Source: Robiginitalea biformata HTCC2501 (lineage in GTDB: Bacteria; Bacteroidota; Bacteroidia; Flavobacteriales; Flavobacteriaceae). From it: 64,000 bases of DNA. Made by a program: the position numbers and the translations under genes. The notes below the pieces were generated by a model, which made no database searches, was not told the DNA's origin, and worked only from the letters and a program-made list of their open reading frames with translations. This document shows positions 18,891-38,009 of the stretch, piece after piece. The stretch spans positions 806,001 through 870,000 of the forward strand of contig NC_013222.1 of NCBI RefSeq assembly GCF_000024125.1. Direction: 5' to 3'. The number at the start of each line of letters is the position of its first letter. Positions within the stretch are counted from its first letter, which is position 1.

Positions 18891-18964
18891 GGTCCTATAG
18901 CTCAGCTGGTTAGAGCACTTGACTCATAATCAAGGGGTCCCTGGTTCGAGCCCAGGTGGGACCA
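18891..18964 (+). tRNA. tRNA with CAU anticodon (tRNA-Met elongator or tRNA-Ile2)
   Basis: A full cloverleaf folds by hand. The acceptor stem is GGTCCTA with TGGGACC (one G-U pair). The D stem is GCTC/GAGC, the anticodon stem CTTGA/TCAAG, the loop CTCATAA with anticodon CAT, the T stem CCTGG/CCAGG with loop TTCGAGC. The discriminator is A at 18964 and CCA is not encoded. A CAU anticodon that is not initiator-like could be elongator Met or lysidine-modified Ile2; I cannot decide by eye. It lies just left of the repeat array and the genomic island. Confidence 0.93.
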
Positions 18965-22044: not shown

Positions 22045-23394
22045 TTAGTAGAGCACCAGAGTGTTTTGAGCTCGGGTTATGGCGGTGTACATATATCTCA
22101 AGGAAGGCATGTAGAACGAGTTTAGAAAGACTTTATCCCACTCTCCTCCTTGTGCCTTATGACAGGTGATAGAGTGCCCGTAGGTTGCTCTTATGGCTCC
22201 TACATAGCGGTCGTCAAATGCGTTGCCAGATTCCCGATAGACGATGTTTTTGGTGTAGCGTTCATGACGTAAGTTGTTCTCCTGTTTTGAAGTCAGTCCC
22301 TGTGGCTGAACCACGGATTCCAACAACAGATAATCTTCAATATACTCGTCCTCTCCTTTCAGGGTTTTCGATTTTAATTTAACGGGAACAAAATGCAATC
22401 CAGCGACCTCTTCCAGGTCTGACATGAAGACTTCCTTGACGATCAGATGATCTCCACTAAAGAGGGTATGCCCATTCCTTTTCCATTGTCGCGTGATAAT
22501 CAGCAGCTCATCTTGTTCTATCGTATTTGCGCCAAATCCGTAGAGGGTGCGTCGGACAGCACCATTGAAAACAGCATTCATTTTATGAGTAGCCCCGATA
22601 GAAATACAGCGATCCACATTTTCTGAGCTATAAGACCTGGCATATTCCCCAACAGCACTCCATATATCTGTTTTAGCAAATCCTGTAAGGGCAAACTGAC
22701 TGCCACCTGCCTCAATTTCTCTGCTCAGCAGGGTGGCATTTCTCAAAATCTCTGTACCGTCCTGCTGACGCTTAACTTCATGGAGAATGGATACAGAACC
22801 TTTAAGGTCAAACTTCTGGGTCAGATACACCTCAGATAGTGCTTGAGATACTCTCTCATGTACTGGAGGGAGTTGATTACGATCCCCTAAGAAGACAATT
22901 TTGTTGTTTGCATTTCCCTCCTTCACAAAATCGATAAGATCAGAAAGCAACGACCTTTTTGCCTGGAAGAGGGCATTATCGTCTTTCGAGGCTACCGACG
23001 AGATCATGGATGCCTCATCGATGATAAAAATGGTATAATCCATAACCTCGTTCTTCTTTGGCTGTAGATGAATGATGCCGCTTTCCGGGTTTGGCTTGGC
23101 ATTATAAATAAGTGAGTGCACGGTGCTATTAATCGTTCTGGCTTTTCGCCCGAGAATACGTGCAGCGCGACCTGTGGGTGCTGCTATTTTATAGTGAACA
23201 CCATTGTGATTCAGAAGCCCAATAAGTGCTGTAGTGATGGAGGTTTTACCTGTACCTGCAGCTCCGGAAAGGATAAAGAAATCCTCTTTATTCCTTTTTG
23301 AAACAAATGCCTCGAGTTTCTCTAATGCGGATTTTTGATCTGCTGTAGGCGCTGAGAACTGAAGGAATTCCAGAATGTTTTTCGTTTGTTTCAT
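22045..23394 (-). CDS. RecD/PIF1-like superfamily 1 DNA helicase
   Basis: ATP-dependent helicase of 449 aa. Start at 23394 (MKQTKNILEFLQFSAPTADQ); the frame extends to 23451 but without family-like sequence. Motifs in order: Q-like TADQKSAL, Walker A GAAGTGKTS (43-51), Ia APTGRAARIL, Walker B IIDEASM, III FLGDRNQLPPV, V SITCHKAQGGEWDKV and VI YTAITRAQ. It lacks RecBCD accessory domains and is shorter than RecD2. In this operon it follows a 319-aa PLD-like protein (gap about 60 nt), so it may be the motor of a defence complex. Confidence 0.88.
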   Translation of the reverse strand: MKQTKNILEFLQFSAPTADQKSALEKLEAFVSKRNKEDFFILSGAAGTGKTSITTALIGLLNHNGVHYKIAAPTGRAARILGRKARTINSTVHSLIYNAKPNPESGIIHLQPKKNEVMDYTIFIIDEASMISSVASKDDNALFQAKRSLLSDLIDFVKEGNANNKIVFLGDRNQLPPVHERVSQALSEVYLTQKFDLKGSVSILHEVKRQQDGTEILRNATLLSREIEAGGSQFALTGFAKTDIWSAVGEYARSYSSENVDRCISIGATHKMNAVFNGAVRRTLYGFGANTIEQDELLIITRQWKRNGHTLFSGDHLIVKEVFMSDLEEVAGLHFVPVKLKSKTLKGEDEYIEDYLLLESVVQPQGLTSKQENNLRHERYTKNIVYRESGNAFDDRYVGAIRATYGHSITCHKAQGGEWDKVFLNSFYMPSLRYMYTAITRAQNTLVLY

Positions 23395-23456
23395 AGGTTC
23401 TTTGACCTTTCGGAAACAAACGTAAAACAGATGCGTGCAGCAGAACTGCACAAGTG

Positions 23457-24416
23457 CTAAAAAGACGGGAACGAGACAAAACTCAAAGTACTAAACCCCG
23501 GAGACTTCAGTTTCTCAAGATATTTCTGATGCAGTCTTTTGCGGTTATTAATTTGCCGGTAATGATAGTGATCAAAGATACTTGAGCTTTCGAGTTCGGT
23601 GTCCTCTCCCTTGGCATTAGGAACAAGATTAAATCCACGAGTTGCTTTAACTATTAGAAAATTGGAGTACAGATAGCGATCATGAAAAGGAGTGCCAGTG
23701 GCGTGAGCATTAGTAACTATCTGGAAAGAGTAAGGGGATTTGGCAAATATTGAATTCAGTTTTTGAACAATCCTCTCAGCTTTCGATTCCTCAGTTTCCG
23801 GAGGCCTGACCTTAAAATCTTTGGTGTGAATTCTAATTTGTACATCTGATTTCTTGCCTTGATTTAACAGCGCATGGAGTAAGGGAAATAAGTTCTTGCT
23901 TAATATATGCCCAGAAGATTCAGATAATATATAATGATCATTAATAATAAGGGAGTTGATAGGTAAATGAGCAAAGAATTCAAACCAATTCCAACCAGGA
24001 AATTCCTCAAAAAGATCAAACCTTTTATGGCATTTCGAAATGATCTCCTCTATTGTTCTTTCGAAGGTCTCAAACTCAAAACATAGTGCTCCTTTTCTTT
24101 CTGCTTCCTCAAACCAGTCTTTCTTTTCGACACAAAAGATTAGAGTCTGTTCACAGCTTGAGTGTTTGAAGAAATGTTTTTCAAAACTTTCTACTGAAGT
24201 AGGAGGATGGTAATTGGACCGGGAGGCGAAAAGGGGATTGTCCAATGAAAGCCGCTCCAGATCCTCAGGAGATTTAATAGGGCAATCAATGAACCAATCT
24301 ACTTCTCCATAGTCTGTTAAAATGGATACAAGCGCTTTCTGTCCAAGACTGTAATTTCTTTTATCAAGGCTTGCATAGAAATCATCCAGAAACGCTTTTT
24401 CGATATAGAGTTCCAT
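23457..24416 (-). CDS. PLD-like HDR-motif protein, partner of the ATPase
   Basis: Protein of 319 aa with no family I can name securely. Two segments recall phospholipase-D-like nuclease folds: NSLIINDHYIL (about 154-164) and PFHDRYLYSNFLIV with an H-D-R triad at 245-247, followed by a Gly-Phe-Asn turn. The classical HKD motif is absent, so catalytic activity is uncertain. The start ATG lies 2 nt after the stop of the upstream ATPase gene, an arrangement that implies translational coupling and a working pair, as in other ATPase-plus-effector defence systems. Confidence 0.7.
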   Translation of the reverse strand: MELYIEKAFLDDFYASLDKRNYSLGQKALVSILTDYGEVDWFIDCPIKSPEDLERLSLDNPLFASRSNYHPPTSVESFEKHFFKHSSCEQTLIFCVEKKDWFEEAERKGALCFEFETFERTIEEIISKCHKRFDLFEEFPGWNWFEFFAHLPINSLIINDHYILSESSGHILSKNLFPLLHALLNQGKKSDVQIRIHTKDFKVRPPETEESKAERIVQKLNSIFAKSPYSFQIVTNAHATGTPFHDRYLYSNFLIVKATRGFNLVPNAKGEDTELESSSIFDHYHYRQINNRKRLHQKYLEKLKSPGFSTLSFVSFPSF

Positions 24417-24418
24417 GA

Positions 24419-26266
24419 TCAGTTTTGCTGCTCCTGATTAATGCGCATCAGATCAAATTTCAGACGAGTGGATTCATCGTAAAACCCCGGACCGAAGGTA
24501 TCCGTAAGATTGCCATTGGCTGTAATTGATATTTCCTTCACCTTTGGTTCCTTTTCATTGACATACTCATCACTATTGAAATAGTAAATGGCCACACTCT
24601 TTTCATCAAGCGAATCGTTCGCAACAAGATATTGTAGCTTGCGGATCAGGTATTCAGAATGCGTTTCAATCACAAATTGTAATCCTGGAAAAGTAGTAAT
24701 TGTCAGGTGAAGAAAGTCAGCAATTTTAGACTGAAGATTGGGGTGAAGATTCGCCTCTGGTTCTTCAATAATAATGGTGTATTCGTTAATCAGGGGCTTC
24801 TTCTGAAATGTTGCTAAACTTCCTATGGCATTACTAATGCGTAAGATAATGGGAACAATTTGGGAATACCCATACCCGAGATCTGATAGGTTAATTTCTT
24901 TTTTTCCTTTAAGAGAAACAACCGAAGCAAAATTTTCGAATCTCTTGACCTCAATTTCACCGGGTATTCCGAATAACTGTAGTGCTTTTGACTCATAATC
25001 CTTAAATGTTCTTTCTCTGGAAGAGTAGTCCCTTATAATTTCATCCATTTGTGTTTCTCCTTCATTAAGAAGAACCCGTTTCTGAGTTCCTCTGTTTGCA
25101 GAGATGTAATCAATGTTCTTGAATAAACTCTTGAATTTGAAATAACCAAATCCATCAAATAGTGATCGGGCAAATTCAATTTCCGTGGGACCCGCATCGT
25201 CAAAATCAGAGTCTAAGGGGTTACCAGAATTCTCGAAGGCATGAGATCCCAATAGCTTCGAGAATAGAATTTTACCAAGGGTGGAATATTCAACAACTAT
25301 TGGATCATTTGCAATTGATCGATCTTCTTTATCAAACAAATAGTTATAGATTCTATTCTGCAATTCGTTTTGAAGCCTGTTGGGCACATTGTAAATAGAC
25401 GTACTAATGTCTATAAACGTATCAGTCTCTCTATAAATTGATGGGGCTAACTCAAACCCATTCTTAAGTGCATTAATTTCTTCTTCAATCACATTTGCAA
25501 AGAGATGGGTCATCTCCTTTTTGCCGAGGAATATTCGAAATGGATTGTAGTCTCTCTCGAGTTGTTTTATTTCATTTCTAATGGCAGCAGTTCGTAACAG
25601 ACTTCTGAATTTAAAATAATATGAATTCTCTTGCTGAATCCTGGATATCCTGCTGAATATATCCTCGAGGTTATCAAGAGTAACAGAATCTAGATAAAAT
25701 CCATCAGCCTTAAGAATATTCTTGCACGTTGACTTAAGTAATTGTTCCATTTCTTCTGAAGTAATATCGCTGTCTTCAGTTTTAAGCATATGGGATTCCA
25801 ACAGGGAGCCATCATAGATGGAATCCATCATTCTCTTCAGATCAATGGACAACCAAGCAGTGTGCTTGGTGAAGCTCAGAATGTCTTTACTTCCATCATC
25901 ATTATTGACTTTAGAATATTTGCAGGCTATCGGAATTTCCTCGGAATCACAAATCTCGATTTTATAAGCGAGATCACCTTTATAGTAAACCTTATGGAAA
26001 AGGCCGGGCAAGGCTTGATAGTCTTCGTAAATGCTTAAAACCAATTCCTCAGAACCTAAATTCCAATTTAGCACCTTTGAAAAGCTTTCCAGATTGTGTT
26101 CCCCTTTGGTAAACTCAAGTTTGGAGATGCCGTTTTTTAGCAGCAATAACAGCTTGGTCAATGAGCTTTTCCCCGCATTATTGGGGCCTAAAAGAATAGT
26201 AATAGGACGTATATCAAATATTTGCGTTGAGGAAAAAACTCTGAAATTCCGGATTCCTATTTTCAT
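24419..26266 (-). CDS. OLD/AAA15-family ATPase
   Basis: Cytoplasmic ABC-type ATPase of 615 aa from the ATG at 26266 (MKIGIRNFRVFSST). Walker A is LLGPNNAGKSS (about 26-35). A long helical middle separates it from a signature-like region (LSDLGYGYSQIVPIIL), Walker B IIIEEPEANLHP, and the H-loop-like ETHSEYLIRKL near residue 530. No TOPRIM domain follows, so it resembles the AAA15/DUF3696 ATPases of PARIS- or Septu-like systems rather than OLD nucleases. It is the first gene of an operon with the PLD-like protein. A WYL-type operator and -7 box lie upstream at 26344-26379. Confidence 0.87.
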   Translation of the reverse strand: MKIGIRNFRVFSSTQIFDIRPITILLGPNNAGKSSLTKLLLLLKNGISKLEFTKGEHNLESFSKVLNWNLGSEELVLSIYEDYQALPGLFHKVYYKGDLAYKIEICDSEEIPIACKYSKVNNDDGSKDILSFTKHTAWLSIDLKRMMDSIYDGSLLESHMLKTEDSDITSEEMEQLLKSTCKNILKADGFYLDSVTLDNLEDIFSRISRIQQENSYYFKFRSLLRTAAIRNEIKQLERDYNPFRIFLGKKEMTHLFANVIEEEINALKNGFELAPSIYRETDTFIDISTSIYNVPNRLQNELQNRIYNYLFDKEDRSIANDPIVVEYSTLGKILFSKLLGSHAFENSGNPLDSDFDDAGPTEIEFARSLFDGFGYFKFKSLFKNIDYISANRGTQKRVLLNEGETQMDEIIRDYSSRERTFKDYESKALQLFGIPGEIEVKRFENFASVVSLKGKKEINLSDLGYGYSQIVPIILRISNAIGSLATFQKKPLINEYTIIIEEPEANLHPNLQSKIADFLHLTITTFPGLQFVIETHSEYLIRKLQYLVANDSLDEKSVAIYYFNSDEYVNEKEPKVKEISITANGNLTDTFGPGFYDESTRLKFDLMRINQEQQN

Positions 26267-26343
26267 AAAATTCCTGATGATTATGATGCCTGAAAAAGTA
26301 TAAGGCGCCAATTCGCTATTAAAGTTATCAAATTCCCTTACAG

Positions 26344-27046: not shown

Positions 27047-30000
27047 TCATGCAGTCCAATCCTTAAACTGCCCTTCAGCCTGCTCCATGATTTCCTGCAG
27101 GATGGCATCTAATTCGCTCATAGACACCCTGCGTCGTAGCTCATGCTTTACAGCCAGCCGAATCTGAGCCTTGGCATTCTCCTTTTTGGTCCAGTCCAGT
27201 TGTAGGTTCTTTTTCACTGCTTTTACTACCGCCTTAACGATATCTTGAATGGGTCCTTTTTCTGAGATTATTTCTTTTTTGGCTGCCAGGATATCATAAA
27301 AGGCGAGTTCTTCTTCGGACAGGCCTAATTCCTTAGTCCGCGAGTCTTCGTGTTGTAACTCTTGCGCACGCTTGACCAGCTCTAATATGGTTGCATAGCT
27401 GTCAAGGGCATTGGTATGGTAGCGTTCTAAGATTCTTTCGAGCTCTTCTTTTAAGGAAGTATATTTCTTGATGTTTTTAGGAAGGCGGAGCTTAATCTCA
27501 TCTTTAAGGATGTTTTTGATCAGCTCAATCTTGAGCGCATGCCCATCCTTTTCCTCTTTCGCTCCTAAAAGAAAGGTTTCATCTAAGATGGAGATATCTG
27601 GTTTTTCGATGCCGGCCATTGCAAAAACATCCACCACCGCCTCGGAATCAATACTCTGACTGATGAGCTCCTTTACCCTCTCGCGGTGGTTTTCGCGCTG
27701 TATGCGAACCGATTTGGCATTTCGAACCGCTTTGGCCACATGTTGAATGAAAAGCACATCTACCGCTTTGTCCTGAATAACCGGCTGATTCTTCACAATG
27801 GACAGCAACCCGGAGAGTTTTTTCTCTCCCAGCATGAAGTTTTGCGAGTCTTCGTCGCTGGGTACAATCGCATTTACAGCAGTTTTAACCAGGAGGAGTT
27901 TATCCCCTTCCCGCAAACGCTTCCAGGGACTGTAGTCGATATCCCCGGGGATATATTGCAGACAGGCCTCGATCTGGTCGTTGAACAGCTCCAGGGCCTG
28001 TTTCATATCGATGGTGGGCTTCCCTTTTCCACCGCCCTGGGTGTATTTTCTGGCGGCATTCCTCAGGTTATCCCCGATACCAATGTAATCGACAATAACG
28101 CCATTATCCTTATCCCGGAATACCCGATTGGTTCTGGTGATGGCCTGCATGAGATTATGACCTCTCATGATTTTGTCTACGTACATGGTATGAACGCATG
28201 GGGCATCAAATCCGGTGAGCCACATATCCCGGACAATGACCATTTTCAACGGATCTTTCGGGTCCCTGAAACGCTTTTTAAGCGCTTCTTTGGCCTCTTT
28301 GGTCCGGATATGAGGGTTCCACTCCTTCGGGTCCTTAGAGATGTTCCCAGTCATTACCACGGCGATTTCGGGGCATCCTTCCAAGGCGGTAAGCGCATCG
28401 TACATCTTGACACAGTTGCGACGACTCATGCAAACGATCATGGCTTTCCCTTCGAGGGTTTCGGTGCGCAACGTGAAATGTCTTAAAATGTCCGAGGCCA
28501 ATTCCTTGACCCTATCCGCTGCACCGGCGGCATCCTCAATGGCCGCCCAATTCATGTTTCCATCCTCCTCGTCTGTCTCAGTAATGGCAGCTACTTCCTC
28601 ATCGATATCTTCATTCCATAAATGGAGTTTAGCCAGGCGCGGCTCATAGTAAATGTTTACCGTTGCCTTGTCAGCAACCGCCTGCTGTATGTCGTAGGTG
28701 TGAATAACACTTCCAAAGACTGCTTCCGTATCGGCATCTTTTTTGTCAATAGGAGTGCCGGTAAATCCAATAAAGGAGGCATTTGGAAGGGCTTTGCGCA
28801 GATTGGACGCAAACCCGTCTAGCAATCCATATTGGGTCCTGTGCGCCTCGTCAGCCATCACAATCACATTTTCTCGCTCCGAAAGAACAGGGTGCTCCTC
28901 TTCTCCTTCGGTATCTTCATACCCTAATTTCAAACGGAACTTTTCAATAGTGGTAAAGATCACGCCTCCCGCTCCGGCCGAGAGCAAACTCCTAAGTTCA
29001 TCTGTGCTTTCCGCATGGGATACTTCACCAACTAAGTCTTTAGCCAGCACAAAGTTTTCATACAATTGAAAATCCAGGTCGCTGCGGTCTACCTGGACGA
29101 CAATGGTAGGGTTTTTAAGCTCTGGAAGGCTTCTGAGGATCCCGGTATACATCGCCATAGAGATGCTCTTGCCGCTTCCTTGTGTATGCCAGATCACTCC
29201 AATACGCCCATCACCGTATGGACGCACAGCGCGTTTGGCCGCATCTACCGCAAAGTTGACTCCGAAGAATTGATGGTACTTGGCGCCTTTCTTAATCAGT
29301 GTCCCGTTGTGATCTTCATGAAAAATGAAGTTTTTTATGTAATTCAAAAGTCGCTCTTTGGGGAAGAGGCCAAAGAGAAGCGTATGCATTTGAAAATCTC
29401 CGTCAGCCACTGTGGTGCGCCCGTCGATACTTTTCCACGGCGCAAACCACTCCAGACTGGAGCTGAACATGCCATGCTGGGCCTCGTTACCATCGCTTAT
29501 GACCGTCAAAGCATTGTATTCGAAAAGCTCCGGAATGTCTTTTTTGTAGTGCCCAATTTGGTTGAAAGCCTCTTTGATGGAAGTTTTCTCGTCATACCAG
29601 TTTTTCAGCTCGAATAGCACCAAGGGAAGCCCATTAATGAATACTATCACATCGGGCCGCCGGACGTTTTTTCCTGTAACACTAAATTGATTGACAACCC
29701 GGTAGGTATTGTTATCTGGATTTTCGTAGTCCAGTGGGTACATGTGGATGGCTTTCTCCTCACCTTTGGAATTCTCATACGGCAGCTCCAGTCCTTTAGT
29801 GAGCTTAAGATGAAAACTGCGGTTACGATGGTCAAGATCTACGCCTGCATTGTTTGTAAACTCCCCAACAGCTAAATCATAGACCTCAAGTGGGAGACCG
29901 GGATAGGCTTTCTCCAAAAAGCCTCTAAGGTCCTTTTTAAGGACCACCTCTTTGAAATTCTCTGCCAGCTCCTCTCCCGGCAGATACGGATACCCCAGAT

Positions 30001-30049
30001 CCTCCAGCCATTCTATGGTGGCCTGCTCTATATTTGATTCCCGAGTCAT
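27047..30049 (-). CDS. hsdR: Type I restriction endonuclease subunit R
   Basis: Motor and nuclease subunit of a type I restriction-modification complex, 1000 aa. The N-terminal nuclease domain has the PD-(D/E)XK pattern (RRPDVIVFINGLPLVLFELK). The SF2 translocase has Walker A HTQGSGKS, DEAH box ADEAHRTQYG, motif III GFTGTPI and later VRDMWLTGFDAP and AITRTNR. It cuts unmethylated DNA after translocation, needing HsdM and HsdS. The start ATG overlaps the Nudix stop by 4 nt (ATGA), so it is the last large gene of the operon that begins at 36930. Confidence 0.96.
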   Translation of the reverse strand: MTRESNIEQATIEWLEDLGYPYLPGEELAENFKEVVLKKDLRGFLEKAYPGLPLEVYDLAVGEFTNNAGVDLDHRNRSFHLKLTKGLELPYENSKGEEKAIHMYPLDYENPDNNTYRVVNQFSVTGKNVRRPDVIVFINGLPLVLFELKNWYDEKTSIKEAFNQIGHYKKDIPELFEYNALTVISDGNEAQHGMFSSSLEWFAPWKSIDGRTTVADGDFQMHTLLFGLFPKERLLNYIKNFIFHEDHNGTLIKKGAKYHQFFGVNFAVDAAKRAVRPYGDGRIGVIWHTQGSGKSISMAMYTGILRSLPELKNPTIVVQVDRSDLDFQLYENFVLAKDLVGEVSHAESTDELRSLLSAGAGGVIFTTIEKFRLKLGYEDTEGEEEHPVLSERENVIVMADEAHRTQYGLLDGFASNLRKALPNASFIGFTGTPIDKKDADTEAVFGSVIHTYDIQQAVADKATVNIYYEPRLAKLHLWNEDIDEEVAAITETDEEDGNMNWAAIEDAAGAADRVKELASDILRHFTLRTETLEGKAMIVCMSRRNCVKMYDALTALEGCPEIAVVMTGNISKDPKEWNPHIRTKEAKEALKKRFRDPKDPLKMVIVRDMWLTGFDAPCVHTMYVDKIMRGHNLMQAITRTNRVFRDKDNGVIVDYIGIGDNLRNAARKYTQGGGKGKPTIDMKQALELFNDQIEACLQYIPGDIDYSPWKRLREGDKLLLVKTAVNAIVPSDEDSQNFMLGEKKLSGLLSIVKNQPVIQDKAVDVLFIQHVAKAVRNAKSVRIQRENHRERVKELISQSIDSEAVVDVFAMAGIEKPDISILDETFLLGAKEEKDGHALKIELIKNILKDEIKLRLPKNIKKYTSLKEELERILERYHTNALDSYATILELVKRAQELQHEDSRTKELGLSEEELAFYDILAAKKEIISEKGPIQDIVKAVVKAVKKNLQLDWTKKENAKAQIRLAVKHELRRRVSMSELDAILQEIMEQAEGQFKDWTA

Positions 30050-30483
30050 AGAAGTTCTTTTGCAAGTGATTTCAACTTTTTGATATCTCGGGGGAGTTCT
30101 AGGTCATGCATCAGTTTTTTAACGATCGGAATATCTGCTGGAGCAAACTCGTACTTTGAAAGTTCTGACTGCGCTACCCATTTATATTGATCATGGTCGG
30201 TAAGGATGATATCTCCCTCTAAATAATCAGCTAGATACCCTTTGAGACAGATGGATTTAGTATCGTAATCATAAGTAGAATCCATGAAATGGGACCGTAC
30301 TGAAATACCTATGTTAAGCTCCTCCATAATTTCACGCGCCAGGCACACTTCCGGCGTTTCATCCGCTTCAATTTTGCCTCCCGGGAATTCCCAAAAGCCC
30401 GCTAGATGCTTGCCGGCTTTTCGCCGGGTTATAAGCACCTTTTTTGATGCATTTTGTATGATGCCAGCGGTAACTTCAATCAT
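30046..30483 (-). CDS. Nudix hydrolase inserted in the type I RM operon
   Basis: Protein of 145 aa of the MutT type. The Nudix box is complete: GGKIEADETPEVCLAREIME followed by ELNI, so the Glu residues that bind metal are present. N-terminal EVTAGIIQNASKKVLITRRK resembles MutT/8-oxo-dGTPases, while the C-terminal YKWVAQSELSKYEFAPADIP fits the same subfamily. It overlaps both hsdS (4 nt) and hsdR (4 nt), so it is translated as an integral part of the RM operon and not simply a neighbour. Its nucleotide substrate is unknown. Confidence 0.92.
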   Translation of the reverse strand: MIEVTAGIIQNASKKVLITRRKAGKHLAGFWEFPGGKIEADETPEVCLAREIMEELNIGISVRSHFMDSTYDYDTKSICLKGYLADYLEGDIILTDHDQYKWVAQSELSKYEFAPADIPIVKKLMHDLELPRDIKKLKSLAKELL

Positions 30484-31718
30484 AGTGCAGATTCTACTTC
30501 TTCCCGGAATTCTTTTAAGCGAACCTCTCCGGAGATGAGTTTAGGAAGTAGGGTATCTCGGAGATCGCTCAACATTATATTTTCAGTTACTTTGGACCTG
30601 ATCATTTTGAATAAAGGATCTACAATTTGATTAAAGTAAAAGATTATTTTTTCTTGAGGATAGATGACAGAGGTGGTCTTAAATGTTGAAGTAGTAATCG
30701 TATCAAATACCGAGCCGTACGATTTTCTCTTAAACTCCTCAATTAAATTCGAAATGATCAGATATATTGTTCCTTGGGAAAATTCACTTGTAGAGTACAA
30801 ACCGTAGCAAGATTGATTCATGGCCATTGGACTAGATATTATTCCAAATTTCCCCACTGATCCACGAGCCACAACTATAACGGTATTTTCTGGCAAAATT
30901 TTTGCCGAACTATTATTCAACCCCAAATAGGAAATTTTCTTCTCCGTTTCAGATATGTAAATGGTCCCCTCATTGCCAATGTCTTTGGCAGACACCCAGT
31001 TTAAATTCCCCCCCCAATATTCAGAAACCCTTGTTTTCGGTGTGCCACCACTCAATAAATCAGCAACTTCAAGAATTCCTTTTACTTCCCACCCCTTCGG
31101 AATAGGCCCCAACTCAGAATCCACAAACTCTCCATCCTGAAACGGCCCGAAATCCACAAACCAGTGTTTGTAAAGCGCCATGGCCATTTCTTCCAGGGTT
31201 TGGTTCATGGCCAGGTTGTTTTCGATTTTGTCGTCTATGGCGGACAGAACGCCTGCAATATCATTAGCTTGTTTAGGATCAGGTGTACGAATTAAGAAAT
31301 TTTCCAAATCCGATCTACTTAGGTTTGGAAATGTTGAACCTGTACAAAGTGCTAACATTCTGTCTAAATAGAAGTCAATTAGGTATTTAACATAACGAGT
31401 TGAATAGCTGTTTTTCCCTCGAATTGCCCCTAAGCCTCTTCCAATTGCATAAACTTGATCGGAAAAATTCATTCTACCGGTGGTAGAACCTCTTACACAA
31501 AAGAGCAAATCTCCTTGGACTGATAACTTTTTGGGTTGATTAGTGAACTGGGTTGGTGCAGGATGTGAATAACCAAATTCTGTCGGGCCGTTCAATAGAG
31601 GAATACCCTTACCTTCCTTGTTTGTATAGGATCCCATAGGTGATTGACCCATAATTATCTCCGCAATCTCAGATAGGGTTTGTGTTTTCCAACCGTTTCG
31701 CATCTTAAAACTGATCAA
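30480..31718 (-). CDS. hsdS: Type I restriction enzyme specificity subunit
   Basis: DNA-recognition subunit of 412 aa with two target-recognition domains. TRD1 (about 8-150) is followed by the conserved helical spacer DKIENNLAMNQTLEEMAMAL and the GPFQDGEFVDSELGPIPKGW linker. TRD2 covers about 210-370, with a second helical region to the end (DLRDTLLPKLISGEVRL). Start could be Met1 (31718), overlapping hsdM by 14 nt, or Met6 (31703). Intact and full-length, so the system probably recognises a bipartite site. Confidence 0.93.
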   Translation of the reverse strand: MISFKMRNGWKTQTLSEIAEIIMGQSPMGSYTNKEGKGIPLLNGPTEFGYSHPAPTQFTNQPKKLSVQGDLLFCVRGSTTGRMNFSDQVYAIGRGLGAIRGKNSYSTRYVKYLIDFYLDRMLALCTGSTFPNLSRSDLENFLIRTPDPKQANDIAGVLSAIDDKIENNLAMNQTLEEMAMALYKHWFVDFGPFQDGEFVDSELGPIPKGWEVKGILEVADLLSGGTPKTRVSEYWGGNLNWVSAKDIGNEGTIYISETEKKISYLGLNNSSAKILPENTVIVVARGSVGKFGIISSPMAMNQSCYGLYSTSEFSQGTIYLIISNLIEEFKRKSYGSVFDTITTSTFKTTSVIYPQEKIIFYFNQIVDPLFKMIRSKVTENIMLSDLRDTLLPKLISGEVRLKEFREEVESAL

Positions 31719-33300
31719 AGTTATCCAGTATCTTCCTCTTCAAGTCTTCACCTTCACGAAATTGCTCTTTTAATTGAGCTTTTAAAATGGCCAGCTTCTC
31801 CTCAAACGGAATACCGTCATCCTCCTCTTCTTCTATCCCCACATAAATACCAGGAGTAAGCTTATAATCCTGTTTTTGAACTTCTTCTAAGGTAGCTGCA
31901 TAGCAGAAACCATCCTGGTTTTCATAAGGAGCATTATCCTTATTAGGCAGATTTCTCCAGGCATGATACGCCTCAACTGCTTTTATTAGGTCGGCCTCGT
32001 CAAACACACGCAGTCGCCGGCTTTCCATTCGCCCCATCTTCGACATATCGATAAAGAGAATCTCCTCTTTACGTTCCCTGTGAACCCCATCCTTGCCATC
32101 CCGGTTTTTGCTCAGGATGAAAATACAGGCTGGAATCCCGGTAGTAAGAAAGAGCTTGTCTGGGAGGCGAACAATTGCATCAATCATTCCCTCATCCACC
32201 ATATGTTGGCGCACATTCTTTTCTCCTTTATTCCCGGTAGTCATGGCACCATTAGCCATCACCACCGCGGCAGTTCCCGTATTGCTTAGGTGACTCCAAA
32301 AAGTCTGCATCCACATATAGTTGGCATTGCCATCTGTGGTAAACTCTTCTTTAGGTCCAAAGAGCCGAGGGTCTTTATCCGGAAGATCCTCCGGATGCCA
32401 CTGGCTGACGTTGAATGGGGGATTCACTAGGATATAGTCAGCCTCTAAGTCTGGAAATTTGTCTTGCAGCAGAGAGTCTCCCAAACGGACATCAAAGGAC
32501 AAATCACGAAGGGCGAGATTCATTTTACACAGTCTCAGTGTGCCACTATATCGTTCTTGGCCATAAATAGAAATATTACGCTTGTCTCCGCCGTGCGCTT
32601 CTAGAAATTTAAGGGATTGCACAAACATTCCGCCGGACCCACAGGCAGCATCAAATATTTTACCCTTGTAAGGCTCTATCATTTCAACCATCAAGCGAAC
32701 AATACTGCCGGGAGTGAAGAACTGACCCGCACCGGATCCCTCAGCAATCGCAAACTTCCCGATATAGTATTCATAAACGCGCCCAAGAATATCACTCTCT
32801 GGATTTTCCTTTACGGACAATTTAGGGTGCGAAAGCAAATTAATGAGTCCACCCACTTGCCGAGAGGTGAGCTGGCTCTTCACAAAAATCCGCGGTAAAA
32901 TTCCTTTGAGTTCAGGCCGGAAAGCACCAAGTGTTTCATCCAGAGTGTCAAAAGCCTCGTCCACCAGGACTTTGATGTTATCCCGCTCGGCATTATCTTG
33001 TAAAAACTCCCAGGTTGCCTTTTTGGGAATGATGTAGGTGTTCTTTGAGAGGTATTCATCTGGGTCTTCAAGAACGTAGTTTCTATCGTCCTCAGATAGC
33101 CCGTAGTAATTTGAGGCCTCATCCTCGAAAGCATCCATTAACTCATCCCGGCGCATCTCATAACGCTCCGACATGTGCTTCAAGAAGATTAGGGGAAGCA
33201 CATAATCCTTATACTGATTTTCGGCTACAGCTCCGCGGAGTTCATTGGCTGCATTCCAGAGTTCTTTTTCGAAGTTGATGTCGGCTTTGGTTTGGGTCAT
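31705..33300 (-). CDS. hsdM: Type I restriction-modification N6-adenine methyltransferase
   Basis: Modification subunit of 531 aa. N-terminal helical HsdM_N domain (NFEKELWNAANELRGAV) is followed by the N6_Mtase domain with SAM motif FDAACGSGGMF and catalytic LVNPPF. It modifies adenines at the HsdS target and protects host DNA. It lies 32 nt after the receiver-protein gene on the same strand, linking the RM genes to the methylase-kinase pair upstream. No own promoter is obvious in the short gap. Confidence 0.95.
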   Translation of the reverse strand: MTQTKADINFEKELWNAANELRGAVAENQYKDYVLPLIFLKHMSERYEMRRDELMDAFEDEASNYYGLSEDDRNYVLEDPDEYLSKNTYIIPKKATWEFLQDNAERDNIKVLVDEAFDTLDETLGAFRPELKGILPRIFVKSQLTSRQVGGLINLLSHPKLSVKENPESDILGRVYEYYIGKFAIAEGSGAGQFFTPGSIVRLMVEMIEPYKGKIFDAACGSGGMFVQSLKFLEAHGGDKRNISIYGQERYSGTLRLCKMNLALRDLSFDVRLGDSLLQDKFPDLEADYILVNPPFNVSQWHPEDLPDKDPRLFGPKEEFTTDGNANYMWMQTFWSHLSNTGTAAVVMANGAMTTGNKGEKNVRQHMVDEGMIDAIVRLPDKLFLTTGIPACIFILSKNRDGKDGVHRERKEEILFIDMSKMGRMESRRLRVFDEADLIKAVEAYHAWRNLPNKDNAPYENQDGFCYAATLEEVQKQDYKLTPGIYVGIEEEEDDGIPFEEKLAILKAQLKEQFREGEDLKRKILDNFDQF

Positions 33301-33332: not shown

Positions 33333-34253
33333 TTAAATGTTATCAGCGTAAACTCCTTTAAACCATAAAAGGATTTCAAGCACTCCATTTCTTAAGGACT
33401 CTACGGCATAATTTGAAATAGTGTACTTTTCGTTCTGATGTTGCTCTAGATAATGAATATATGTCCCGCAAGTGTAATAAATCCATTCATGAAGATTCTT
33501 GATTTCCTTCGTTTGATATACCGGTGTAACTGGCTCCCAGTTTCGGTCTCTGGATGGGTTTCCTGATAAATGTTTCAGTTTTGAACTAAAACTATTCAAT
33601 GAGGAATTCAAAACACTTATACCTTCAAGATTATAAAGACAACTTTCCTGAACACTTCGAATAATGGTTAAGATTTCTTTTAATTCTGAGTTGGATGATG
33701 GCAAGGGCTTGTTAATTAGATCCAGAATATTTTCTTCCATTTCATGAGGTAAATAACCTAAATCGAAAATTTCAAAAATTTCAGGATTATTATGTCTAGC
33801 CTGGGTTTCGGGGAGCAAATCTGACTCGGATTTTATCCTTTCCCATAATTCATCCAGATGTTCTTCATTACCCAGCTTATCATAGACTAAGCCTTCCTGA
33901 AATGCCTCGGCAAATCGATTTTTCTCCTTCGTAAATGAAGCCTGTCCGGAAAGTATAAACCAAGGTAATTTCTTGACCCCCTCAAGCCTAATTAATTCTC
34001 TGGCAACTTCACCTAGTGCATCGTCTTTTGTAGGTGTTCCTTTCTCCTCAGGTGTTTTATAAAACAACCCGTCCAGAAGTGCTGCATCGTAATAGCGAAT
34101 ATTTGTTCTTAACTCATTGATCCCACTTGCAGAATTCTTGAATCCCGTGAGTTTTATATCATTTAAGTGCGCATGTTCCTGAATCCTTGTTAAAGAATCA
34201 TACTCGTCATCAAACCAAATTACTCGATAGGTTTTATTCTTCATTTTAATCAC
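33333..34253 (-). CDS. Receiver-domain (response-regulator-like) protein with unknown helical C-terminus
   Basis: Protein of 306 aa; starts at 34253 or, with a 1-nt gap to the previous stop, at Met4 (34244, MKNKTYRVIWFDDE). Residues 1-150 have the receiver residues in place: Asp15-Asp16 in IWFDDEYDS, phosphoacceptor Asp61 in AALLDGLFY, the switch Ser102 in FILSGQ and Lys126 in VYDK. Residues 150-306 are mostly helical (NLHEWIYYTCGTYIHYLEQH) and match nothing I know; there is no DNA-binding helix-turn-helix. It directly follows the methylase-histidine-kinase fusion, which makes it the probable phosphoryl acceptor. Confidence 0.78.
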   Translation of the reverse strand: MIKMKNKTYRVIWFDDEYDSLTRIQEHAHLNDIKLTGFKNSASGINELRTNIRYYDAALLDGLFYKTPEEKGTPTKDDALGEVARELIRLEGVKKLPWFILSGQASFTKEKNRFAEAFQEGLVYDKLGNEEHLDELWERIKSESDLLPETQARHNNPEIFEIFDLGYLPHEMEENILDLINKPLPSSNSELKEILTIIRSVQESCLYNLEGISVLNSSLNSFSSKLKHLSGNPSRDRNWEPVTPVYQTKEIKNLHEWIYYTCGTYIHYLEQHQNEKYTISNYAVESLRNGVLEILLWFKGVYADNI

Positions 34254-36930
34254 TAATTGGAAATTTTAACTCGAAGGAGGTTGCCAAATCACTATTTGCG
34301 AGTCTCTCTGGACCGGATTCGTCAATGAGGTCCCACTCTCCTTTATGCTTTCGAATAACCTGATCTATAAACCAACCTCCAAATCCTTGGCCCTGACCAC
34401 TTCCGAAGCTAAATCCGTTTTGCTTTATATCATCGAATGTAAGGCTTGAATCAATTGGATTTCCTGTATTGGAAACCAGGATTTCGATAGTTTGAATTGT
34501 AGGGTCCTCCAAGAATGTTGATAAGAAAATTTCGATTCGATCGTTTCCTTTATTTTGAAAGGCATGTGCTACCGCATTGTCAATAAGATTATCTAGCATC
34601 GCAGTGAGCAGCTCCTTGTTTCCTAATATTTTTGGCCGGTATCGATTTCCCTGTACATCTGTGAATCCTTCTTTGTCATAGTCGAATAGAACTTCATAAT
34701 CTGGCTTTGCATCTTTTTTAACGTGAACGTAGTTTTCCACAAACCTGAATAGGTCTATGTTGGTCATTTTCTTTCCCTCGAGTGTTTGCGCCACGCTTAA
34801 TTTGCGCTGAACTGTATCACGAATAATTTTGGCTTTCGTCTTAGACTGTTCCAGATAGTTTTCCAAAGTAAAAATGTGCTTTGCACTTAGTTTTCGTTGC
34901 AGTAATTCAGGTAATTGCTCAAGCGCTATTTCTCTAATAATTTCATCAATGTTTTGAACGGCATTAAATAAGTCAGAAACAGGTCCTGCCAGCGTATGGC
35001 GTAAGTAGGCATTTTGTTGTATTATATCGCTCTCCAGAGAATCAATTTGCCTATATAACTTTGTAGCCTGAACCATTTCACTCTTTTGTTCTTTCAGACT
35101 AGGTAAAGCGAATTTCAAGCTTAAGAGATCCTGACGCCTTAGATAAGAAATACCACTTCCCTTTTTGAGTAAAGCCAACTGTCTTTTAATGGAATCAGAA
35201 TGCAAATGATTAATAAACCAATCGAGATCAACTAAATTTGGATTTGGCTTGAGTGCAATTAGCTGATGATGAAGATAAAAAGGAGGTTCGGAATTGGAAA
35301 CAAAAGTAGGTTTGAGCGAACTTCCAATTAAAGTCACTAAAACTACTTCATCCACAATTATCCTTGCGTTGTGCGAGCGCTCACGAAACTGAACTGAATC
35401 GATTTCTAAAGAATAATTATAGGGGTCGTTTTTTAAGTCTTTTGTTGAGATGAATTTAACTTGCCTTAGAACTTCTTGGATTTTTGAACGATTCTGATTG
35501 ACAATTTTCCCATAATCATTTTTAGCTACTCCCTCTTTATCAAATGGTTCACCAAGTTGTGAAAAACCCATTTTTCTGAAAAATTTTTCAAGAAAAGAAT
35601 CATTCCGGTTAAAGATTGATGAAACATAAATTAATCCTGATTGATACCCTTTTTCGACCTCTACTATTTCCTGAAGTTCAATTCCTTCTATTTCCTCGAA
35701 TCGATATCGTTCGTGATCAAGGGAGTAATCCTGACTTTTAATGGAATCTTTGTCGATTTCCAATTGATTGAAAGGAGGTTCGTCAGTTCTAGAGTGATCG
35801 GAAGTTTGGATACTTACAGATCTTCTAAGAAAATCTTTGGTAATATCTTCTAGCATCAATTGGTAGTGCCCATTGTTTAATGGTTGCGCATAATTCTCTC
35901 CTGGAAAAAACAGCACACTTCCAGGTCGCTCCTTTGTTTTGCTTATAACTATTACTGAAAAAGGGCTATTCGATTGAAGAAATAATCCTCCTGGAAATGA
36001 GATAACAGCTTCGACTAGATCCTCTTCAATAAGTCTCTGACGGACACCTTTGTTAGACTTGGAATATAAAAGCCCATTCGGAACTATTGCTATCATCTTA
36101 CCACAATCCGTAAGAAGTTCAATACCTTGAGTGAGTAGAAATTGCTCTACAGTTTTGTATTTCTTTTCCGTCGTTTGTTGATGTTTTCCAAGGCGAAGTC
36201 CAAACGGGGGATTGGATATAATGAGATCGTATCTATTGGTATTAGGCCAGGATAGAAAAGAGTCAACTTTTTCAAATGATGAGTTATTTAACTTATCATG
36301 AGCATCCAATCTTAATGTAGTAACCGCCCAGGTTAAATCATCAATTTCCTGACCATGATAATTAATGGTTGAATCATTCAGGAAGATTCCAAAACTTCCC
36401 AAGCCAGCAAATGGATTAAACACTCTTTTGCCCCCATGTAGATTTGAAATATTAATCAGGAATTTTGCTATTTCTGAAGGCAGCATTATTTCCCCCCTCT
36501 TCCTTTCAACACCCTTAACTATCTTCTCTAGTAAAGTCTCAAAAGCTTTAGCGTAGAGGGCAGGGGGTAGATTCAAATAGAGATCTTCTAATTTTTTCAG
36601 AAGTTCTTTTGATTCTGATAATTGAAAATTCTCGATTCGCCTTTCAAAAATCCTATAGGTATCCCTTAAAAAGTCAGGTAACTCATAGTTTGGCAATAGC
36701 AACAAGCGAGTTTGGGTGAAGGATAATTCTCCCTGGTCATTTCTATTCGGAAAAAGAGCAAGGCCTGAAGTATAGGAGCTTTTTTCTGATGTAAATTGAA
36801 GTTTAACATAATGACGAAAGCAACCTAGAACATAAAGGAGAAGAAAAGCATCATCCGGTTTTGTGGAAACCACCCTAAAAGCCTTCAGGGCCTTTAGGGC
36901 AAGATTTTCAAGATTTTCAGATTTGCTCAT
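34246..36930 (-). CDS. HsdM/HsdS-like methylase fused to a histidine-kinase core
   Basis: Protein of 894 aa that joins three parts. Residues 130-380 form an N6-adenine methyltransferase of the HsdM type: VFNPFAGLGSFG at 170-181 and ISNPPFG with NPPF at 240-243. Residues about 430-640 look like an HsdS target-recognition domain, ending in YLRRQDLLSLKFALPSLKEQ and a coiled coil. Residues 635-894 form a kinase core: H-box-like LRHTLAGPV with His645, N-box LDNLIDNAVAHAF (779-791), G1 SNTGNP (820-825) and G2 GSGQGQGFGG (843-852). N-terminal 130 residues are helical and unknown. It heads the operon before the receiver protein and the hsdMS-nudix-hsdR genes. All catalytic motifs look intact. Confidence 0.85.
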   Translation of the reverse strand: MSKSENLENLALKALKAFRVVSTKPDDAFLLLYVLGCFRHYVKLQFTSEKSSYTSGLALFPNRNDQGELSFTQTRLLLLPNYELPDFLRDTYRIFERRIENFQLSESKELLKKLEDLYLNLPPALYAKAFETLLEKIVKGVERKRGEIMLPSEIAKFLINISNLHGGKRVFNPFAGLGSFGIFLNDSTINYHGQEIDDLTWAVTTLRLDAHDKLNNSSFEKVDSFLSWPNTNRYDLIISNPPFGLRLGKHQQTTEKKYKTVEQFLLTQGIELLTDCGKMIAIVPNGLLYSKSNKGVRQRLIEEDLVEAVISFPGGLFLQSNSPFSVIVISKTKERPGSVLFFPGENYAQPLNNGHYQLMLEDITKDFLRRSVSIQTSDHSRTDEPPFNQLEIDKDSIKSQDYSLDHERYRFEEIEGIELQEIVEVEKGYQSGLIYVSSIFNRNDSFLEKFFRKMGFSQLGEPFDKEGVAKNDYGKIVNQNRSKIQEVLRQVKFISTKDLKNDPYNYSLEIDSVQFRERSHNARIIVDEVVLVTLIGSSLKPTFVSNSEPPFYLHHQLIALKPNPNLVDLDWFINHLHSDSIKRQLALLKKGSGISYLRRQDLLSLKFALPSLKEQKSEMVQATKLYRQIDSLESDIIQQNAYLRHTLAGPVSDLFNAVQNIDEIIREIALEQLPELLQRKLSAKHIFTLENYLEQSKTKAKIIRDTVQRKLSVAQTLEGKKMTNIDLFRFVENYVHVKKDAKPDYEVLFDYDKEGFTDVQGNRYRPKILGNKELLTAMLDNLIDNAVAHAFQNKGNDRIEIFLSTFLEDPTIQTIEILVSNTGNPIDSSLTFDDIKQNGFSFGSGQGQGFGGWFIDQVIRKHKGEWDLIDESGPERLANSDLATSFELKFPISD

Positions 36931-36964: not shown

Positions 36965-37000
36965 CAAACCTAGATATGATTTGTGCATTGAGTCTTCACT
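36965..37000 (-). promoter_or_regulatory. Promoter and WYL-type operator of the methylase-kinase/RM operon
   Basis: On the minus strand TAGGTTTG (36972-36965) is a perfect -7 box, 35 nt before the ATG at 36930. A degenerate operator TGTGCA-TTGAGTC-TTCACT lies at 36982-37000, its centre 19 bp from the first base of the box, overlapping the WYL stop codon. The right arm deviates at two of six positions, so binding is less certain than at the WYL gene's own site. Confidence 0.55.
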
Positions 37001-38009
37001 AGTTATAATGTTCTAGGCTGTTTCTTAATTGGACATAGATTTCTTCTCTGTATCCATCAGGGCTGAGTACCTCAATTTTGTCACCAAAAGATAGAAGAAG
37101 GCTATCTAACTCTTTATTAGGCAAAACCTCTATAGAAAAGATGGCATAGTTACTTGTTTGGTCAACTATTTTCTGTGAGCCATGTAACGGTTTTGTTTTG
37201 ATATATGGAGCCAGGGAGATATCAACTTTAAGTCGGATTTTTGTTAATTCCTGGTTTTCAAATAAGGTTACACCAATAATGTCCTCAAAATATTCATCGA
37301 AATCAATAGAGGTGTTCTCAATAAAGGCATGTGAGGATTCCTCTATTTCCTGAATCCTGTCTAAAGCGAGATTTACAATAGAGTCGTATTCCTTGTTACG
37401 CCCAAAAAGAAACCACCGACTATTATATTGTTTTAAATACCAAGGGAAGAATAGGAATGTAGAAGGTCTCTCCTGCCGAAATCCCTGATACGCTATATTC
37501 AAAGATTGTTTGTTGATTATTGCATTAAATAAACGCCCAAAGTAATTTAAGCCTTTCAGGTATGGATTCGTCTCGAATCCTACAATAGATTTAGAAGAAC
37601 CTTTCAAACCTAGAGCATCCTCTAGGCGAATCTGCATTTCTTCAATCCATTCGAATTGAGGCATGCCCTTAAACCTTGAAAGCACTAAAAAAGCAGAGCG
37701 CAATTGCTCGGCTTCCATCGGATTTACCATTTGGTTTCTAATGGAAAAATGAGGGTCGGCATACCGATAATAAACCCGTCGCCCATCCCGGGTCTTTTCC
37801 AGTTCAATGGACCATCCCTGAGAGGATTCCATAAAAGCGATGTCATCGTATAATTGCCGGCGACTTATGCCGCTGCTACCCCCTTTGAGTTCGGCCAAGG
37901 CTTCATTACAAGCCTCGAGTAATTCCGGAATCCCATAATTTTTTCCAGGATTACTAAAGCACTCATCTAACTTGTGGTAGCGAACGATGGCATTTTTATT
38001 AATGGACAT
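36999..38009 (-). CDS. WYL-domain transcriptional regulator
   Basis: Protein of 336 aa. The N-terminal part (to about 100) is a winged-helix-like region (GISRRQLYDDIAFMESSQGW). The WYL domain is at about 140-230 (IAYQGFRQERPSTFLFFPWYLKQYN, SRWFLFGRN), followed by a WCX-like C-terminal extension. WYL proteins of this kind (BrxR, CapW) repress defence genes and sense a ligand, possibly nucleic acid. It lies between the defence operon and the small-gene clusters on the same strand. A perfect inverted repeat sits in its own promoter, so it probably represses itself. Confidence 0.9.
   Translation of the reverse strand: MSINKNAIVRYHKLDECFSNPGKNYGIPELLEACNEALAELKGGSSGISRRQLYDDIAFMESSQGWSIELEKTRDGRRVYYRYADPHFSIRNQMVNPMEAEQLRSAFLVLSRFKGMPQFEWIEEMQIRLEDALGLKGSSKSIVGFETNPYLKGLNYFGRLFNAIINKQSLNIAYQGFRQERPSTFLFFPWYLKQYNSRWFLFGRNKEYDSIVNLALDRIQEIEESSHAFIENTSIDFDEYFEDIIGVTLFENQELTKIRLKVDISLAPYIKTKPLHGSQKIVDQTSNYAIFSIEVLPNKELDSLLLSFGDKIEVLSPDGYREEIYVQLRNSLEHYN

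Follow-up and report, generated by a model that had tools for sequence, protein, structure and literature searches.

A methylase-histidine kinase fusion paired with a receiver protein in type I restriction-modification operons of Bacteroidota

HEPN genes are often linked to restriction-modification (R-M) systems (PMC3710099, PMC9296519; the papers cited here were available to us in part, and statements drawn from them are limited to those parts). One such case is PrrC, the HEPN anticodon nuclease encoded in the type Ic hsdMSR locus of EcoprrI, a single protein with an ABC ATPase and the canonical HEPN motif that the R-M enzyme holds in check by interacting with it and that is set free upon inhibition of R-M or a rise in unmodified DNA (PMC3710099). 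The paraMORC-HEPN (Ymh) proteins likewise link a GHKL ATPase to HEPN in R-M neighborhoods (PMC3710099). Here we analyze two adjacent genes in a stretch of 64,000 nucleotides from Robiginitalea biformata HTCC2501 (contig NC_013222.1, positions 806,001 to 870,000 of the forward strand; this whole stretch is called the window). The first encodes an 894-aa fusion of an HsdM-like methylase core, one HsdS-like target-recognition domain (TRD) and a histidine-kinase core, the second a 306-aa receiver protein, and they stand second and third in a type I R-M operon of seven genes. Detocs also brings histidine kinase and receiver proteins together in a defense setting, but is not known to contain a methylase or TRD and has a phosphorylase-type effector.

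A comparison of the pair with these systems shows both likenesses and disparities. Like PrrC in the EcoprrI locus, the pair is an extra module in an hsdMSR operon, with a putative HEPN-type effector and what may be a similar back-up logic (PMC3710099). Unlike PrrC, it has its sensor kinase in one protein and a HEPN-like domain joined to a receiver in another, and it does not co-diversify with the R-M genes. Ymh is one polypeptide with a MORC-type ATPase, and the available text describes no methylase domain, kinase His or receiver for it (PMC3710099). In the PorXY system of Bacteroidota the output of PorX is a PglZ-type phosphodiesterase (PMC12839542), as against the HEPN-like output and HsdM/HsdS-like input seen here. 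No description of R-M operons that hold a methylase-histidine kinase fusion together with a receiver was found in the open-access literature available to us, which takes in few subscription papers; the earlier note made from the window's sequence knew of no such combination either. The main text of the HEPN survey does not contain the term histidine kinase, and its sole mention of a receiver concerns another family (PMC3710099). A figure legend elsewhere mentions predicted systems with HATPase and REC domains, one of which might belong to the fusion family (PMC13092281). The pair has probably been overlooked so far because public records, where they name the proteins, label the fusion an N-6 DNA methylase, a site-specific DNA-methyltransferase or a type I enzyme M protein, and in most cases enter the receiver as a hypothetical protein (response regulator in two among the matches listed).

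The architecture proposed in the earlier note is borne out by Pfam and profile matches to N6_Mtase, Methylase_S and HATPase_c, by the presumed phospho-acceptor His and by the residues of the receiver (Table 1). Conservation in the fusion was assessed on 59 sequences, comprising 37 full-length fusions from the 40 loci described below and 22 database proteins, of which 55 were kept after relatives at least 85% alike had been removed. H645, N785, N821, G823 and G851 are invariant in all 55, and N781 is found in 52; the identity of the tail as HATPase_c rests on profile matches. The family profile matches solved HsdM, HsdS and histidine kinases, and not MutL or MORC (E ≤ 0.001). The fusion resembles type I HsdM and HsdS in its N6_Mtase core and Methylase_S segment, and differs from them in its single TRD unit, its kinase tail, the absence of any Pfam HsdM_N match at E ≤ 1 and the frequent loss of methylase motif IV. 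On the NCBIfam hsdM equivalog TIGR00497 (cut-off 242.75) it scores 44.8 and the genuine HsdM next door 174.4, both below the cut-off. The PADLOC mad2 model matches the methylase core (1e-23) and also the ordinary neighboring HsdM, and the fusion falls far short of the MADS MAD2 methyltransferase model NF047738, scoring 24.1 bits where the cut-off is 720.

Motif IV is intact in the window's copy, and across the 55 fusions the position of N240 holds Asn in 29 and Asp in 4. The full [ND]PP[FYW] motif is kept in 23 and absent from 32, an alignment-free count likewise giving 23/55; the alignment at this motif is uncertain in five divergent members (L045, L047, L049, L073 and L075). By comparison, NPP[FY] is present in 32/32 HsdM open reading frames (ORFs; 400-1100 aa) of the examined stretches, and among the 28 loci where fusion and HsdM are paired only 11 fusions have the motif. 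Since so few fusions retain a motif that every HsdM ORF keeps, a sensory role seems more likely for the methylase part than an enzymatic one.

The receiver domain has a predicted receiver fold with the acidic pair, phospho-acceptor Asp and Lys in place. D16, D61 and K126 are invariant in 57/57 aligned receivers (the window's, 47 from the 120 listed of 184 database receivers, and 9 locus receivers) and in 37/37 locus receivers, these being all that stand beside a full-length fusion; D15 is replaced by Glu in 2 of the 37. Conservation of these residues in homologs, which the earlier note had made a test of its proposal, was thus found, as was the recurrence of the two genes together in other genomes. 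The fusion is present in 40 of 48 examined stretches (the window included), and in 40/40 the receiver is the next gene, with joints of -80 to +46 bp. This linkage arises partly by selection, as 38 of the 40 loci were found through the receiver, the exceptions being the window and L107. When 395 genomes were searched in reverse, starting from the fusion profile, 12 of the matches listed extended past profile position 800, and a receiver adjoined 12/12; eleven were already known from the receiver search or as the window's own, and the twelfth (G211/L107) had been missed by it. At a contig edge (L044) and in a frame-broken copy (L046) only the end of the fusion is present; in L046 the fusion is broken into several ORFs and the adjoining receiver ORF is open. 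The eight fusion-free stretches comprise one with the receiver at a contig edge (L052), one in which a methylase-like ORF short of the kinase part precedes the receiver (L076), four with receiver scores of 17-23 that were taken as other families (L053, L060, L061, L062) and two fetched via partial fusion matches (L108, L109).

Mantel tests on pairwise identities (300 permutations, so that p 0.003 is the floor) covered 36 loci for the cassette pairs, 31 with HsdM, 18 with HsdR, 17 for HsdM-HsdR and 27 for WYL with cassette genes; of the near duplicates L012 and L013, the latter was left out of these tests and kept in the synteny counts. The kinase and receiver parts gave a rho of 0.76, the highest of 28 comparisons, with 0.57 for methylase-receiver, 0.50 for methylase-TRD and 0.68 for HsdM-HsdR. 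Cassette genes compared with HsdM or HsdR gave -0.18 to 0.11, and WYL compared with all others -0.14 to -0.02. Because the kinase-receiver correlation is high while those with HsdM, HsdR and WYL are about zero, the fusion and receiver are, on these identities, a portable signaling cassette that evolves as a pair and is shuffled among R-M systems and WYL regulators. A recent origin of the fusion by duplication of the neighboring HsdM was rejected, the identities of the two being uncorrelated (r 0.08; rho -0.05).

The earlier note had proposed DNA recognition or methylation state as the input of a two-component relay. Methylation state was not established in this role, given that the motif is kept in just 23/55 relatives and that the fusion TRD is not specially similar to the neighboring HsdS. 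Across 26 loci the ranking did not favor the cognate HsdS over the rest (permutation p 0.21), so that the fusion does not appear to read the same site as its neighbor. Nor does the TRD behave as a hypervariable specificity domain, its median identities being close to those of the methylase core in most bins (0.41 vs 0.43, 0.79 vs 0.81), though in the 0.50-0.65 bin it lags (0.42 vs 0.53, 70 pairs); identity of the neighboring HsdS drops to 0.32-0.37 at HsdM identities of 0.54-0.77. A TRD that mostly tracks the methylase core and resembles the local HsdS no more than others points to a ligand shared by many R-M contexts rather than a specificity matched to the neighbor.

The C-terminus of the receiver protein had been described as helical, of no known type and possibly a novel effector. 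It is indeed helical, but its model lies nearest to HEPN proteins, which suggests that it is not of a wholly unknown type. Matches to the model include structures 7bxo and 5yep, which we take to be HEPN-type. Of the 19 best VIA-align rows, 14 are HEPN-type as judged from titles or from PMC3710099 (LsoA, RnlA), with 7bxo and 5yep counted among them; the titles of the other five are uninformative. In a PDB profile search with the C-terminus, a designed helical repeat matched at 8e-4 and all other matches were above 0.6. Relationship in sequence to RnlA was rejected (hhalign probability 0.1%), as was relationship to the DUF4145 head of a neighboring HsdR (0.3%). Such an N-terminal DUF4145 occurs on the HsdR of two neighboring R-M systems (L006:17037-20474 and L018:16757-20245). 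No ABC ATPase match was found in the fusion or the receiver protein.

A phosphorelay, as the earlier note proposed, is the most economical reading of the pair because the genes co-occur, the residues needed for a relay are kept, and the kinase diversifies together with the receiver, although phosphotransfer itself is inferred from these features. The function we favor, tentatively and with somewhat less than even confidence, is that of an R-M-linked back-up defense relay, a second line behind restriction signaled by phosphotransfer. This choice follows from the methylase/TRD sensor, the co-diversifying kinase and receiver, the HEPN-like output and the home in an hsd operon. The HsdM-like core and single TRD would stand where a histidine kinase normally has its input domain and may, in the manner of a methylase, bind DNA, R-M subunits or phage anti-restriction proteins aimed at the methylase core, with kinase activity as the output. 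When restriction is overwhelmed or blocked, His645 would autophosphorylate and pass its phosphate to Asp61 of the receiver encoded by the next gene. The phosphorylated receiver could then free the HEPN-like domain, and possibly an OB/cold-shock-like domain in longer relatives, to act on RNA. This action would lead to cell arrest or phage limitation, the role that PrrC has for EcoprrI, and the WYL protein would act as the operon's transcriptional regulator.

Several features weigh against the back-up relay. Canonical HisKA residues are departed from, with an acid at H+1 in just 4/55 fusions and Asn in place of the G1 Asp in 55/55, and the putative output lacks the canonical RNase motif R-x4-6-H, no Arg being found 4-7 places before H267 in 57/57 and 36/37 receivers. 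Kinases with other residues at the H+1 and G1 places exist (HisKA_2 and HPK10 types). The H+1 and G1 departures would suit an ATP-driven conformational switch of the MutL/MORC type, in which the GHKL domain is carried by a methylase core that binds DNA and the receiver protein serves as allosteric partner with no phosphotransfer. We consider such a switch improbable, as invariance of the kinase His and of the three receiver residues is hard to explain without phosphotransfer, the kinase-receiver correlation is the strongest of all pairs, and the solved structures matched by the tail are histidine kinases. Less probable still, and in our view very unlikely, is that the fusion works as an adenine methylase, its kinase tail being regulatory, in a system that mainly modifies DNA; the window's copy does keep NPPF and an N6_Mtase core, but motif loss in 32/55, the single TRD and the lack of an HsdM_N match argue otherwise.

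The main rival is two-component regulation of the R-M operon itself, which we regard as unlikely but a more serious contender than the preceding two. The methylase-like sensor would read DNA or its methylation, and the receiver, as a non-catalytic RNA-binding HEPN(-CSD) regulator, would tune hsd expression, for example against self-restriction in a new host. This would fit the shared operon with hsdMSR, the adjoining WYL regulator and weak OB/CSD matches in two long relatives. It is at odds with the 8 of 40 stretches that have no labeled HsdM (some of them contig ends) and with the absence of any Pfam DNA-binding domain in the window's receiver protein, and a regulatory role could already belong to the WYL protein. 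Portability between R-M types suits the back-up relay and the regulatory reading alike.

The setting of the cassette is mobile and patchy, as judged from its restriction to the window's genome within the genus (0/9 other congeners), its presence on a Myroides plasmid and its place in a low-GC island beside tRNA-Met. Receiver profile matches were found in 14/395 genomes from the class, 12/397 from the family and 12/395 from the phylum Bacteroidota, each count including the window's own genome and some weak matches taken as other families. One of these weak matches, L060, holds a 1136-aa protein without a Pfam match, a 151-aa receiver and a 368-aa receiver protein (L060:8302-13257), the first and last of which match PADLOC PDC-M60A and PDC-M60C/B. 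We take the PDC-M60 models to represent Detocs (DtcB/DtcC-type receivers for PDC-M60B/C), and the L060 set is presumably Detocs-type by its architecture; the window's receiver matched no PADLOC model at E ≤ 0.01. Another, L061:7047-10479, encodes a 780-aa protein that carries HATPase_c_3 and HATPase_c domains; together with the 367-aa receiver-like protein after it, this may be a further kinase-receiver pair.

A WYL gene lies at most two genes upstream of the fusion in 28/40 loci, and HsdM, HsdS and HsdR were labeled in 32, 27 and 24 of the 40 fusion stretches; these labels come from phmmer with few queries, so that distant types are undercounted, and include short ORFs (e.g., L010) and, in L047, opposite-strand genes. 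The Myroides mobilizable plasmid carries, as annotated, a WYL protein, N-6 DNA methylase, hypothetical protein, methyltransferase and subunit S, with subunit R three genes on. A DUF2130 gene lies just after the receiver in L003 (10971-12251) and L056 (10386-11672) and just before the fusion in L051 (5612-6868), and L057 and L058 have ORFs of similar size after the receiver. A viral origin was rejected, as no relative was confirmed among viral contigs and no significant viral fold match was obtained.

In the window, the seven minus-strand genes run in the order WYL, fusion, receiver, HsdM, HsdS, NUDIX and HsdR, with joints of 68 bp before the fusion and 32 bp before HsdM, and the remaining joints overlap as called. 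A promoter and terminator scan gave no signal above shuffles. The low-GC island extends from window position 18891 to about 42000, at about 0.36-0.50 GC vs 0.55-0.63 outside. The tRNA-Met site looks like an integration hotspot, since one congener holds other low-GC DNA at the same tRNA; R-M, WYL and NUDIX queries had no match there. Just past the hsd operon, window positions 22045-26311 encode an AAA_15/DUF3696 ATPase (PADLOC NsnB 3.5e-43), a 319-aa unknown protein and a RecD/PIF1-like helicase (PDC-M16A 1e-81), a further candidate defense set.

Table 1. Features of the fusion-receiver pair and its operon (window positions)
Feature	Position	Strand	Remarks
WYL-domain regulator (WYL + WCX), first gene of operon	36999..38009	-	Pfam WYL 7e-13, WCX 2e-10
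Fusion, 894 aa: HsdM-like methylase core, one HsdS-like TRD, histidine-kinase core	34246..36930	-	
Fusion methylase part, aa 127-412	35695..36552	-	Pfam N6_Mtase 6e-30; motif IV NPPF (N240) intact
Fusion HsdS-like target-recognition segment, aa 492-637	35020..35457	-	Pfam Methylase_S 5e-6; family profile vs HsdS 5ybb_D 6e-14
Fusion His645 codon, presumed phospho-acceptor	34996..34998	-	Invariant in 55/55 fusions
Fusion HATPase_c, aa 771-891	34258..34620	-	Pfam HATPase_c 2e-6, above cut-off
Fusion HATPase_c boxes			N box N781/N785; G1 N821-x-G823; G2 G849/G851
Receiver protein, 306 aa	33333..34253	-	True start probably ATG at 34244
Receiver domain	33819..34229	-	D61 codon at 34071-34073
Helical C-terminal domain, modeled HEPN-like fold	33336..33815	-	Conserved R199 and H267
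HsdM of adjacent type I R-M system	31705..33300	-	Pfam N6_Mtase 1e-92, HsdM_N 1e-21
HsdS, two TRDs	30480..31718	-	Pfam Methylase_S, 2 stretches, 2e-33
NUDIX/MutT-like hydrolase, between hsdS and hsdR	30046..30483	-	Pfam NUDIX_4 1e-20; PADLOC candidate PDC-S07 1.5e-51
HsdR	27047..30049	-	TIGR00348 5e-177, above cut-off

In a broader form, which we offer as a conjecture with roughly a one-in-three chance of being right, the pair would be a DNA-sensing two-component immune pathway. A type I methyltransferase, captured along with its TRD and in many cases without catalytic activity, would serve as kinase input, reading invading DNA, its modification or anti-restriction proteins that target such cores, and would fire a HEPN-type RNA-acting receiver, the whole forming a portable alarm that could insert next to unrelated R-M systems of type I. 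If the relay works, type I R-M and two-component signaling, both among the commonest bacterial machineries, would be joined in one immune circuit. It would also offer a testable answer to how cells notice failed restriction, a modular DNA-reading kinase, and possibly a novel means by which bacteria detect invading DNA.

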